From Methyloterricola oryzae (GTDB lineage: Bacteria > Pseudomonadota > Gammaproteobacteria > Methylococcales > Methylococcaceae), in assembly GCF_000934725.1 (NCBI RefSeq), contig NZ_JYNS01000002.1, forward strand, positions 124,001 to 188,000: 64,000 bases of DNA, written 5' to 3'. Positions 1-3,504 of this stretch are shown here, in pieces. Under the pieces are notes generated by a model. The model worked only from the letters and a program-made list of their open reading frames with translations. It was not told the origin of the DNA and ran no database searches. Position 1 is the stretch's first letter; each line of letters opens with the position of its first letter. Made by a program: the position numbers and the translations under genes.

Positions 1-306
1 GGAATGCAGGCCGAACAGGAACACGTAGCCCATGCCCAGCATGACCCCCAACTGCGCCAGGATGCCGGTGAGCTTGGGCCCGAAGTGGTCGGCCAACATG
101 CCCAGGGGGATGCGCAACAGGGCGCCGCAGAGGATCGGAATGGCGACGACGGTGAACTTTTCTTCAACCGGCATCCCCAGTTCCTGGGTGATGTACAGGG
201 ACAGGGGGCCCAGCATGACCCACACCATGAAGGAGACGTCGAAATAGAGAAACGCGGAGAGCAGGGTGGGCCAGTGGCCGGCTTGTTTGAATTCGCGGAA
301 GTTCAT
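1..306 (-). CDS. narK: NarK-family nitrate/nitrite MFS transporter, 5' part only
   Basis: N-terminal 102 codons of an inner-membrane major facilitator protein; the rest lies beyond the left edge of the window. The start MNFREFKQAGHWPTLLSAF and the following segment ending in WVMLGPLSLYI match the opening of NarK/NasA nitrate transporters, which begin with 'hWpTll.aFlyFd.sFm.WvmlGpl'. The first two membrane helices and the loop motif LRIPLGMLADHFGPK (the MFS G-x-LaDr-G signature between TM2 and TM3) are visible. It lies 75 bases downstream of the NrtA/NasS-like gene with no terminator between them, so the two are probably co-transcribed from the sigma54/ANTAR-controlled promoter upstream. Its likely role is nitrate uptake for assimilation. 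Antiport and symport subtypes cannot be told apart from this fragment. Confidence 0.9.
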   Translation of the reverse strand, partial: MNFREFKQAGHWPTLLSAFLYFDVSFMVWVMLGPLSLYITQELGMPVEEKFTVVAIPILCGALLRIPLGMLADHFGPKLTGILAQLGVMLGMGYVFLFGLHS

Positions 307-381: not shown

Positions 382-1674
382 CTAGTGTTCGTGACAACCC
401 GGTCTGGAGGTGGGCGGGTTGTCTGGCCTGGCGCCGGAGGGGTCGAAGACCGCGCCGTCCAGAAAACGGTCCGGCCCCAGGTCGAAGCTGTCGTTGTGGG
501 TGGCGAGCAGCCAGCTTTGCTCGTGTATGCCTTCCGGCTTGCCGTTTTCGGGCGGGCAAGGGAGCCCGAGGACGGCCGCGGCACGGCGGTAGATGTCCGG
601 CCGATAGATTTCCGCCGCCAGGGCTGGAACGTCCAAGGGCGGCTGGATCTGCCCCCAGCGCAGCATCTGCGTGATGAGCCATTGGGCGTGCGAGACCCAG
701 GGAAAGTTGGCCGCATAGCGATGGAAGACATGGAAGTCCGGCATTGGCCTGATTTCGGTATCCCGGCGATGGCGGAACTGCCCGCACAAGCCGGCCTGCA
801 AGAGCTGCTCGGGCAGGTTGAGATATTCCGGCCGCGCCAGCAGCGTGGCCGCCTCCGCCCGATGTGCCGGGTCGTCCAGCCAGCGCGCGGCCTGTATGAG
901 GGCGACTACCAGGGCCAGGTGGGTGTCGGGGTAGCGCTCGGCAAAATCCCGGGTCACCCCCAGCACTTTCTCGGGGTGGTTGTTCCAGATGTCGTAGCTG
1001 CAGATCAGGACGCTGCCGACGCCTTCCTCCACGGCCACGGAATTCCATGGCTCTCCTACGCAGAATCCATCTATCCATCCTTCCCGTAACTGGGAGACCA
1101 TCTGTGGCGGCGGGATGACGCAGAGCTCCACGTCGTGGTCGGGGTCTATGCCGGCCGCGGCAAGCCAGTAGCGCAGCAGGTAGTTGTGGCTCGAGCAGGG
1201 AAACACCATGGCGAAGCGCATGGGTGGCTTGCCCCTTGCCTTGTCCTGTTCGATCAGGGTCTTCAGGGGGCTGGCGTCCTGGGGGCCGCGCCGGCACAAG
1301 GCGGGCTCAATCTCCTTGAGCCGTTGGTACAAGGGCTCTGCGACGGTGATGGCATTTCCGTTCAGGCTCATGGAGAACGCGGTAACCATGGGCATCTGGA
1401 AAGCATCTGCGCCCAGACTGGCCGCGATGGGCATTCCCGCCAGCATTTGACCACCGTCCAGGGAGCCGAAGCAGACCTTGTCCCGGATGTTGGCCCAGGA
1501 GGGCTCGCGCGTCAGCGTGACCTCGAGGCCGCAGGCGCCAAAGAAGCCCATTTGCTGCGCAACCACGAGCGGTGCGCAGTCGCTCAAAGGAATGAAGCCA
1601 AGGTTCAGGTGCGGGTGCTCCGGCGCAGCCCGCCAGGCCAGTGGCTTGGGCACAGTATCTGTTGAGCTGTTCAA
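382..1674 (-). CDS. NrtA/CmpA-family nitrate-binding protein, probably a cytoplasmic NasS-like sensor
   Basis: 430-aa member of the NrtA/CmpA/NasF substrate-binding family. LGFIPLSDCAPLVVAQQMGFF near residue 26 and the later CVGEPWNSVAVEEGVG segment are family hallmarks. The N terminus (MNSSTDTVPKP) has no hydrophobic signal, Tat motif or lipobox, so the protein should stay in the cytoplasm. In that respect it resembles NasS, the nitrate sensor that holds the ANTAR antiterminator NasT, rather than periplasmic NasF/NrtA. The start is a TTG at 1672-1674, preceded by AGGAG eight bases upstream; no in-frame ATG is nearby. It is the first gene after the two-hairpin leader and is followed by narK. 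No nasT is in the window. A periplasmic role would need an unrecognised export signal. Confidence 0.82.
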   Translation of the reverse strand: MNSSTDTVPKPLAWRAAPEHPHLNLGFIPLSDCAPLVVAQQMGFFGACGLEVTLTREPSWANIRDKVCFGSLDGGQMLAGMPIAASLGADAFQMPMVTAFSMSLNGNAITVAEPLYQRLKEIEPALCRRGPQDASPLKTLIEQDKARGKPPMRFAMVFPCSSHNYLLRYWLAAAGIDPDHDVELCVIPPPQMVSQLREGWIDGFCVGEPWNSVAVEEGVGSVLICSYDIWNNHPEKVLGVTRDFAERYPDTHLALVVALIQAARWLDDPAHRAEAATLLARPEYLNLPEQLLQAGLCGQFRHRRDTEIRPMPDFHVFHRYAANFPWVSHAQWLITQMLRWGQIQPPLDVPALAAEIYRPDIYRRAAAVLGLPCPPENGKPEGIHEQSWLLATHNDSFDLGPDRFLDGAVFDPSGARPDNPPTSRPGCHEH

Positions 1675-1697: not shown

Positions 1698-1759
1698 AAA
1701 AAAAAAGACGCCTGCGAGCCGACTGTCAAAAAAACTGACAATGCCTCGCGGACGCCTTT
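1698..1759 (-). terminator. Intrinsic terminator of the nitrate leader (attenuator)
   Basis: On the minus strand, GGCGTCCGCGAG (1756-1745) pairs with CTCGCAGGCGTC (1718-1707). That gives 12 positions with one mismatch and two G-U pairs, and AAA (1759-1757) can extend the stem against the first Ts. A nine-T run follows at 1706-1698. A smaller inner hairpin (TGTCA/TGACA) fills the loop. The 5' arm overlaps antiterminator hairpin P2. The start codon is 24 bases past the T run. Confidence 0.8.
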
Positions 1760-1790
1760 GTCCGTGACAGCTTCGCCGCCGTTGGCGAAA
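1698..1790 (-). promoter_or_regulatory. ANTAR-type antitermination leader RNA (two A-G hexaloop hairpins plus terminator)
   Basis: Read on the minus strand, two small hairpins follow each other. P1 is TTTCGCC/GGCGAAG (1790-1784 with 1777-1771) with the hexaloop AACGGC. P2 is CGGAC/GTCCG (1764-1760 with 1753-1749) with the hexaloop AAAGGC. A six-base linker separates them. Both loops have A at position 1 and G at position 4, the defining feature of RNA bound by ANTAR proteins (NasR, NasT, EutV, AmiR). The loop and 3' arm of P2 are also the 5' arm of the terminator stem, so P2 and the terminator exclude each other, as in the known nasF and eut leaders. The predicted sigma54 start at about 1800 leaves P1 some ten bases into the transcript. 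Binding by a NasT-like protein would allow read-through into the nitrate genes. Confidence 0.85.
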
Positions 1791-1810
1791 CTGCCTTTCA
1801 AATTGAATAA

Positions 1811-1827
1811 AGCAGTAGTTGTGCCAG
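1811..1827 (-). promoter_or_regulatory. Sigma54 (RpoN) promoter of the nitrate operon
   Basis: Minus-strand CTGGCACAACTACTGCT matches the RpoN consensus YTGGCACG-N4-TTGCW with few mismatches. The invariant GG (1825-1824) and GC (1813-1812) are exactly ten bases apart. Transcription would start near 1800, just before antiterminator hairpin P1. Nitrogen assimilation genes are classic RpoN/NtrC targets, so the context agrees. Confidence 0.75.
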
Positions 1828-1900
1828 CCTCAATGGCATTTATGGGTATCTATAAATCAATGGCTTACTTATATCTTGGACGGGATACGCCGATGAATCC

Positions 1901-1937
1901 GCACCATTGCAGGGCCGGATTGCCCAATATGTGCGCA
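1901..1937 (-). promoter_or_regulatory. Possible NtrC enhancer sites
   Basis: At 1921-1937 the minus strand reads TGCGC-N7-GGGCA, close to the NtrC dyad TGCAC-N7-GTGCA, centred about 129 bases upstream of the predicted start. A second, weaker GGTGC-containing box (TGCAATGGTGC) lies at 1901-1911, about 106 bases upstream. The spacing resembles glnA enhancers. Neither box is perfect. Confidence 0.45.
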
Positions 1938-2439
1938 GCTGGCAGCGTTCGGGAGAAAACGGGAGGTCGTGTCGGAAAATTTTCCAGTGACGGCCCAAGA
2001 TCAGTGGCCCTGTCGGAAAGCTCATAAAATTCAACAGACTAATGGTTGGCTTTGAAATTGCTTGATAGGAGTTGTGGTTCTTTAACGAAGCCCGAGAGCT
2101 CCACCCGGCGACTCTTTCAAGGTGTTCCCACCTCGCTCATCGAGCGTTACGAGTCGCCCAGGCAGTAAACTAGGAGAGCTGAGGCGGTGCGGAAGCCGCC
2201 AAAAACCCAATCGAGCGCGAACGTGCAGGGACAGTACGCAGGGACCTCATGAAGGCGGCCAAGTGCCGCCTTCCCAGCGTCCGGCGCGATCCGTGCGCTT
2301 CCCATTCCTCAAGATGATGCGTCAGTTCCCTAACTGCGCGGAATTCTTCACCCCTTCAGCGGTAATTTTTCGCATAGACACACCTGCTGGTGCCCTTACG
2401 ATGACAGTCCTCGGGCTGTTGTGGGCTAGGGGGCAACCA
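1938..2439. other. Intergenic stretch without a recognisable gene
   Basis: Between the NtrC-like boxes and the dioxygenase-like gene. The reading frame of the downstream gene is open from 2122, but residues before 2440 resemble nothing and have no ribosome binding site, so this is treated as untranslated. A GC-rich dyad (GGCGG...CCGCC) lies near 2182-2200. No promoter could be assigned with confidence. Confidence 0.4.
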
Positions 2440-3504
2440 ATGAAGGTTTCGGCATGGAATTATTTGAGCAGTTTCGCCAGGTTAGGTTTCAGTGGCGGGT
2501 CCTGGGGCTGGGCCGATCCCTGGGCGGGGGGAACTGAGAAGAGGGTCCGGTACGGCCAGTCCCCGCTGGGTGAGCCCGTCAGCCTGGGCAGGGTTTGGGA
2601 GGTGGCACTGGCTGCTAGACACAGGGCCGTCCTGTATAAACAGGCGGTGGGTGCTCCATCGCCGGTTGCGGAGCCTCAGGCCTTCTTGGGCTATTGCCGG
2701 CATCTAGCCGGCTATCTGCCCGACAGTATTGCCATGGCCTTGACCCTGTTCCGCAGCGATCCCGGTGCACCCGGGACGCTCCTGCTGCGCGGGCTGCCAC
2801 TGGACACCAATCCGTCAAATCCAGGTCCGAAATCTCTAAAGCCGCTTGCCGAAAGGGTCGTCGCGGAGGCGGTGCTCGGTGCGTTGGCGTGCGTACTGGG
2901 TGTTCCGGATGCAGCGGATGGGCGCCAAAACAGCGCAGCGGCGGAGAATTTGATCCTTAACGGTGATATCTATCCGGATACGAGTGGGCCGAAAGGTTTG
3001 AGGACCGCGGCTGCGCATCGCGCGATTCCGCCCTCCTTTCTGCTTTACCTGCGCGCCGCTCAGGACCAACGCCGGACCCTGAGCATTGACGTGGCCACTG
3101 CGAAGGAAGCCGTGGACACGCTGGCCGAGGAGGAAGCGGTGCTATTGCGTCAGCCGCTTTTTCGCATGGCCGAAAACTGCGGGGCCGATGCGGCGGGCAT
3201 GCGGCGGATCTGGTCCTGCCCCCATCCCTTGCTCTGGGACGAGGCCGGGAGCCTGCATACGCGCCTCGGCGGCTCCGGCATCATGGCCGTCAGTCCGGAA
3301 GCGGAAGCAGCCCTGCGAGCCTACCAGGCTGCCTTGGTCTCAGCGACCCGGCAGGTGAAAATGCTTCCAGGGGACGTGTTGGTGATCAACAATCGCAAGG
3401 CCGTCCATGGCCCTATCGCGCCGGTTGGCGGCAGCAGCGAAGTGCCAATTGGCCCAGTGTTGAGGAGGTGGGTGATGGCAGCCCGTGGCGCCCGAGGCGG
3501 CTGA
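2440..3504 (+). CDS. TauD/clavaminate-synthase-like protein with a degenerate iron site
   Basis: 354 aa from ATG 2440, which has GGGGG seven bases upstream; the open frame runs further 5' but without family similarity. GTLLLRGLPLD in the middle and GDVLVINNRKAVHG near the C terminus are typical of the TauD/TfdA subgroup that includes L-asparagine oxygenase (AsnO) and clavaminate synthase. Those enzymes use Fe(II) and 2-oxoglutarate to hydroxylate amino acids or peptides. The distal iron His (AVHG) and a candidate 2-oxoglutarate-binding arginine near the end are present. At the expected HxE/D motif before the PxxFLLYLRA strand, however, the sequence reads LRTAAAHRA, so the first two iron ligands seem lost and the lid segment looks shortened. 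It may be a pseudoenzyme, a decaying gene, or use other ligands. It converges with a small gene 18 bases away. Confidence 0.6.
   Translation: MKVSAWNYLSSFARLGFSGGSWGWADPWAGGTEKRVRYGQSPLGEPVSLGRVWEVALAARHRAVLYKQAVGAPSPVAEPQAFLGYCRHLAGYLPDSIAMALTLFRSDPGAPGTLLLRGLPLDTNPSNPGPKSLKPLAERVVAEAVLGALACVLGVPDAADGRQNSAAAENLILNGDIYPDTSGPKGLRTAAAHRAIPPSFLLYLRAAQDQRRTLSIDVATAKEAVDTLAEEEAVLLRQPLFRMAENCGADAAGMRRIWSCPHPLLWDEAGSLHTRLGGSGIMAVSPEAEAALRAYQAALVSATRQVKMLPGDVLVINNRKAVHGPIAPVGGSSEVPIGPVLRRWVMAARGARGG

Follow-up and report, generated by a model that had tools for sequence, protein, structure and literature searches.

A predicted NasS-NasT antitermination leader behind a sigma54 promoter in the nitrate-assimilation gene run of Methyloterricola oryzae, and its likeness to narK RNA

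The dual-hairpin ANTAR motif was defined, and found widely by covariance model, by Ramesh et al. 2012 (PMC3369931), and NasR is described as preferring two hexaloop hairpins with an A in the first and a G in the fourth position (A1 and G4); in a transcription assay, read-through of the nasF leader is given as 5% without nitrate and 52% with nitrate (PMC7496416). In the NasS-NasT pair, nitrate or nitrite is reported to bring about the dissociation of the two proteins (PMC3795266). NtrC, according to the Paracoccus work, acts on nasT, upstream of the leader (PMC5424462), and a review presents the Pseudomonas nirBD leader as combining sigma54, NtrC and NasT, with c-di-GMP as an additional input (PMC12830290). 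Furthermore, a survey predicts 66 sigma54 promoters within COG3707, an ANTAR group (PMC12316311), and the NasT of Bradyrhizobium is reported to act on nos and other genes (PMC6759348).

We compared with these systems a leader in a stretch of 64,000 nucleotides of M. oryzae (the window, C2:124001-188000 of the genome; an overlapping segment, C2:110000-127000, is numbered here as L003). As far as the published descriptions go, the leader of the window would share with the Pseudomonas nirBD leader (NalA) the sigma54 promoter, NtrC, the terminating leader hairpin, antitermination by NasT and NasS as the sensor, with the difference that the Pseudomonas leader serves nirBD, whereas that of the window precedes nasS in a run ending with nasT (PMC12830290). 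Like the Klebsiella nasF leader, it has two A1/G4 hexaloop hairpins and a terminator exclusive with the second (PMC7496416), and both appear to answer to the Ntr system plus nitrate (PMC7496416, PMC5424462); however, the Klebsiella NasR is described with its own nitrate domain, whereas the ANTAR protein of the M. oryzae gene run has a receiver, and sensing is assigned to NasS. The Paracoccus nasTS-nasABGHC system resembles it in the NasS-NasT pair and the hairpin leader before structural genes (PMC3795266, PMC5424462), but nasT and nasS are described there as lying together upstream of the leader, while in M. oryzae both follow the leader, nasS opening the gene run and nasT closing it. The mechanism is already known from Pseudomonas and Klebsiella, and by this comparison the leader of the window appears to match it. 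From the sequence anatomy, conservation, covariation, partner genes present and gene layout observed here, we hold it very likely, with a probability of roughly 0.9, that the leader exerts transcription antitermination control of a nitrate-assimilation operon via sigma54/NtrC and NasS-NasT.

All the elements of the leader lie on the minus strand. The sigma54 -24/-12 promoter TGGCACAACTACTGCT occupies positions 1826-1811, with GG at 1825/1824, ten bases and GC at 1813/1812, and matches the flanking consensus as well as the GG-N10-GC core; with a score of 19.5 of 21 against a consensus string, a level reached by 0.22% of random 60-base stretches, it agrees with the RpoN-type promoter claimed in the preliminary description. 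Across the two strands of the window, five sites score at least as high, TGGCACAACTACTGCT included. Promoter spacing (12 bases past the C of GC) puts the predicted transcription start at about 1800, before the hairpins, as had been proposed, but about 5 bases ahead of the full P1 stem and not 10. Hairpin P1 (1795-1766) has a 12-pair stem, GGCAGTTTCGCC and GGCGAAGCTGTC, around the hexaloop AACGGC; a single A (1765), the shortest P1-P2 linker among the 34 aligned leaders, separates it from hairpin P2 (1764-1749), with the 5-pair stem CGGAC/GTCCG around the hexaloop AAAGGC. Both hexaloops have A1 and G4 and the C-G closing pair of the ANTAR motif. A bulged terminator hairpin, exclusive with P2, spans 1759-1704 and is followed by a nine-T run (1706-1698); in particular, AAAGGCGTC (1759-1751), which is the P2 loop plus part of the P2 3' arm, serves as the terminator 5' arm and pairs with GGCGTCTTT (1712-1704). 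Thus, the hairpins, their loops and the terminator are as first described, and the statement that the pieces fit together to the base holds almost to the base. By eye, AGGAG at 1686-1682 is the likely ribosome binding site, ahead of a TTG start codon at 1674. The terminator loop (1721-1740) is a seven-T run within a long inner stem, different from the other leaders compared, with the exception of one (L014) that also has T runs there. A simple terminator scan did not list the terminator of this leader.

For the RNA spanning 1810-1690, the folding energy is -53.3 kcal/mol (z -5.68), a value matched by none of 200 shuffles. The free minimum, at -52.8 kcal/mol, consists of P1 plus the terminator, and the forced P1 plus P2 form reaches -44.1 kcal/mol; the latter costs 8.7 kcal/mol relative to the former, and the terminator form is therefore the preferred state without protein. 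The overlap of the second hairpin with an exclusive intrinsic terminator, characteristic of ANTAR leaders, is retained in relatives.

The claim that the leader controls nitrate-assimilation genes was borne out by the genes found behind it. The leader lies 24 bases upstream of the ribosome binding site/start region of the first of them, a nasS-like gene (382-1674, minus strand, 430 amino acids, TTG start) for a protein of the NrtA/CmpA-fold family. It is followed by a gene for a NarK-type nitrate/nitrite transporter of 426 amino acids (1-306, minus strand, for the start of the gene; L003:13027-14307 as a whole), which scores 242 bits, under the NCBIfam cut-off of 311.7. Outside the window are the genes for NirB (810 amino acids, over the NCBIfam cut-off), for a NirD-like protein of 112 amino acids, named by eye, between nirB and the reductase gene, and for a molybdopterin reductase between nirD and nasT (893 amino acids from the ATG used), whose best matches, to formate dehydrogenase alpha and to NasC, an assimilatory nitrate reductase, both fall short of the cut-off, and which we called a nitrate reductase from its gene position. 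The last gene of the run is nasT (L003:5023-5601, 192 amino acids), 3' of which lies a gene for an alginate-export-type porin. Embedded in the run, between the transporter gene and nirB, is a fusion of a PP2C phosphatase with a Ser-Thr kinase (L003:11154-13016, 620 amino acids). The gaps up to nasT are, in order, 75, 10, -4, 78, 28 or 40, and -4 bases; they are short, so that a single transcript is likely. That the transcript extends to nasT, so that the switch would regulate itself, is likely also in view of the named families. In the gene run, the leader covariance model detected no second leader under E 0.1 on the operon strand; its strongest remaining match, of 16.3 bits (E 0.0026), lies on the opposite strand. 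A further sigma54-like site, scoring 18.5, occurs on the operon strand inside the kinase gene, and the best sigma54-like score at the nirB-nirD-reductase junctions is 16.4. Upstream of the leader, a divergent open frame on the plus strand (2401-3504) matched no Pfam family at E 0.001.

The protein encoded by nasT contains a receiver and an ANTAR domain, the arrangement typical of NasT. It is one of two ANTAR proteins in the genome, and in neither is the ANTAR domain fused to the nitrate-sensing NIT domain that marks NasR; thus, of the ANTAR proteins named at the outset as binding such leaders, it is NasT, together with a NasS-like sensor, that is present here, and not NasR. The other ANTAR protein (L004:6652-7272, contig C24), also with a receiver, is encoded beside a long PAS-rich kinase-like frame. 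On its NrtA/CmpA family membership, the first-gene protein could instead be the binding protein of a transporter. In favour of NasS, it shows no signal peptide by eye, and its orthologues (54-64% identity) keep company with ANTAR genes: of the 26 family genomes with an orthologue, 17 have it beside an ANTAR gene, 6 (G000, G002, G004, G016, G020, G027) have it on the same strand 9-16 kb ahead of the ANTAR gene, and in 3 (G024, G025, G030) the ANTAR gene is upstream or on another contig. In the genome of the window itself, nasS and nasT are not adjacent, being about 9 kb apart at opposite ends of the gene run, which is a less usual layout. A leader stands directly before the nasS orthologue in 8/26 (G000, G002, G016, G020, G024, G025, G027, G030). 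In G020, a second NrtA-like paralogue occurs right behind the nasS orthologue, and it suits the transporter role better because of its twin-arginine-like start. General searches of the open-licence literature brought up no description of an operon with nasS at one end and nasT at the other.

Conservation of the leader was assessed with a covariance model built from 34 leaders, that of the window included (3 of 37 listed leaders were left out). In the 4.9 Mb genome, the leader of the window scores 45.6 bits (E 6.2e-9) and the next best match 23.1 bits. Covariation of the two hexaloop hairpins, on which the preliminary description had made its reading depend, was found in both: among the 34 leaders, 63 cells are changed on both sides of stems, compared with 16.1 after shuffling and no more than 17 after sliding the alignment. 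Since paired stems had been a condition for choosing these leaders, a less biased test of P1 was made with the P2 sequence only as the query in 274 genomes of the class. It listed 55 sites, of which we read 31 in 30 fetched loci, one of the 31 being the window itself; an A1/G4 hexaloop hairpin occurs close upstream of the P2 pattern at 14 of the 31, compared with 2.6% of random positions. P1 was thereby recovered at 13 of the 19 sites with a downstream T run and at 1 of the 12 without.

The leader also co-occurs with ANTAR genes. A match to the leader model (E <=0.001) is present in 25 of the 29 family genomes with an ANTAR gene, 4/29 having none at this threshold, and in 0/9 of those without one (Fisher p 4.4e-6); after dropping the ten genomes that had donated leaders to the model, the counts are 15/19 and 0/9, all of them to be read as counts of related leaders, in part from non-independent genomes of the same genus, and not of independent events. 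A second leader-model match in the M. oryzae genome (contig C6, E 0.0098) had no T run after it in the sequence read and was taken as a chance match. A strict hairpin finder, applied to the sequence ahead of nasS relatives at 25 named loci, one of which offered only 61 bases, retrieved leaders in 2 only, because many of the others have their leaders elsewhere in the cluster.

Two further arrangements could be noticed among the relatives. In nine loci of Thiodiazotropha and related gammaproteobacteria (L009, L011, L012, L014, L015, L017, L018, L026 and L027), where some 4 kb separates the nas leaders from the nasS-like genes downstream, a second back-to-back pair of hexaloop hairpins is flanked by complementary segments just after the sigma54-like site, with the usual P1-P2-terminator following some 50 bases later; its loops have A1 and G4 in both hairpins, except in L026, where the first is degenerate. 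There are possibly two NasT sites in one such leader. In G016, a single nas cluster (C1:1018000-1038500; L139, L153) has four leaders, which stand in front of nasS, of another NrtA-like gene, of the transporter gene and of nirB, with nasT last, and each leader has a sigma54-like site scoring 18.9-20.0.

The promoter was followed over the family in 45 leaders (53 matches minus 8 second copies of sites fetched twice), 44 of which are sites with E < 5e-4 and one a site at E 0.0018. A sigma54-like site (>=17.5, within 60 bases upstream) precedes 38 of them, compared with 2.0% at random, and each of the 14 genera represented among the 45 has one or more such sites; 7/45 have no site at the threshold, three of these scoring 17.0. 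As for NtrC, likewise scored against a consensus string (maximum 18), the leader of the window has one box of 14 at 1916-1900 (minus strand; -116 to -100 relative to the predicted start), a value that random 214-base stretches taken from the window reach in 4.6% of cases, and a weak one of 12.5 at 1937-1921 (minus strand). Of 37 family leaders, 18 have an NtrC-like box of at least 14 upstream, where 5.6% would be expected, the 37 being the 45 minus near-duplicates (L107, L109 and two L112 sites) and leaders without a sigma54 site (L116, L126, L128, L152). The partner genes presupposed at the outset are present in the genome: RpoN, one NtrC protein over the cut-off (738.7 vs 558.6 bits, among 83 NtrC-model matches in total) and NasT at the end of the gene run. 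The proposed NtrC input rests on boxes that are weak in the window itself but enriched over the family.

At Rfam gathering scores, no match was obtained in the whole window. In a permissive scan of 501 bases, narK RNA (RF03032) covers 1825-1749 with 39.2 bits (E 5.4e-6; gathering score 43.2) and P11 (RF00625) covers 1838-1707 with 30.6 bits (gathering score 70), each matching the leader over the full model; matches to isrD and rpfG, with E above 2, were taken as chance. The narK consensus starts with GGCaCAgcucUUGCU, whose GG-N10-GC core is that of a sigma54 promoter, and its last part, GACAAAGACGUC, aligns with P2 and is unpaired in the structure line, the model pairing only P1. The narK model, which is independent of the 34 leaders, has matches in 19 of the 29 family genomes with an ANTAR gene and in 0/9 without, and exceeds its gathering score in 6/38 family genomes. 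In the class, narK matches at E <=0.001 occur in 13 of 274 genomes, 12 of which have an ANTAR gene, compared with 87/274 overall (p 5.8e-6); the thirteenth (G138, no ANTAR gene) lies inside a long open frame, as does, inside an open frame, a second narK match in the M. oryzae genome (contig C8, E 0.0157). For 6 of the 13 (G058, G065, G164, G198, G205, G287), the match is within about 210 bases downstream of an ANTAR domain match. Among 14 narK matches fetched from the class, several of which had also been recovered by the P2 pattern, 10 have both A1/G4 hexaloop hairpins by script; L162 has P2 by script and P1 by eye, and so has L161, whose P1 is closed by a U-G pair; L163 has P1 only, and L164 is a chance match. 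When 20 sources with family leaders were scanned at E 0.001, narK was found in only 2. It is likely that narK RNA and the NasT leaders are one element, and we infer that P11 is the NalA leader. A literature search for the phrase "narK RNA" gave no match. On the whole, we think it fairly probable that narK RNA, and probably P11, corresponds to a sigma54 promoter plus a NasT-bound two-hairpin attenuator, in which promoter DNA has been counted as RNA and the narK P2 left unpaired, and that in this lineage nasS and nasT at the operon ends make up a built-in feedback switch, with read-through raising the antiterminator and its inhibitor alike.

For the leader of the window, the following course of events can be proposed, in which we infer the activation by NtrC, the nitrate response of NasS-NasT and the binding of NasT from the named families. 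Under nitrogen limitation, NtrC would activate the RpoN polymerase, and transcription would start at about 1800. Without nitrate, NasS, from the first gene, would hold NasT, from the last; P2 would yield to the terminator, and transcription would end at 1706-1698. If nitrate or nitrite is present, NasS would release NasT, which would bind the P1 and P2 hexaloops, keep P2 folded and block the terminator, and read-through would allow the transcription of nasS, the NarK-type transporter gene, the PP2C/kinase gene, nirB, nirD, the nitrate reductase gene and nasT.

The same RNA switch might be served by a promoter activated by a sigma54 activator other than NtrC. The weak boxes of the window would suit such an arrangement, as would the 83 NtrC-model matches with only one over the cut-off, which imply that other activators exist; we consider it unlikely, given the enrichment of boxes before the family leaders (18/37 vs 5.6%) and the role of NtrC described for Klebsiella, Paracoccus and Pseudomonas (PMC5424462, PMC12830290). 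It is far less probable that a second receiver-ANTAR protein, L004:6652-7272, regulates this leader: its ANTAR domain is over the cut-off, but its gene is on another contig, beside the PAS-rich kinase-like frame and with no two-hairpin leader within 14 kb at E 0.1, whereas NasT is encoded within the nas gene run.

Other explanations concern the RNA itself. Its main product could be the terminated transcript, about 100 bases long, which would work as a small RNA or NasT sponge with little control of read-through; the filing of the related Pseudomonas RNA, P11, as an sRNA gene in Rfam and the 8.7 kcal/mol advantage of the terminator form point that way, and the short distance of 24 bases from the leader to the ribosome binding site/start of the first nitrate-run gene and the P2/terminator overlap kept in relatives argue against it, so that we regard it as improbable. 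That an ordinary terminator stands next to chance hairpins, under no protein control, is scarcely credible in the face of the conserved order, the covariation and the co-occurrence with ANTAR genes, even though a strong terminator alone would also halt transcription. Antitermination by NasT behind an NtrC-dependent sigma54 promoter is the reading that we prefer.

Because the mechanism itself is known, what is gained is annotation and comparison and not a new kind of regulation. A two-input nitrogen switch would thereby be placed in the methane-oxidising family Methylococcaceae, and two points would be added, namely, what one Rfam family probably is, since narK RNA would receive a plain identity if the shared identity is true, and the layout with nasS at one end of the gene run and nasT at the other, which may be regarded as a testable feedback design.
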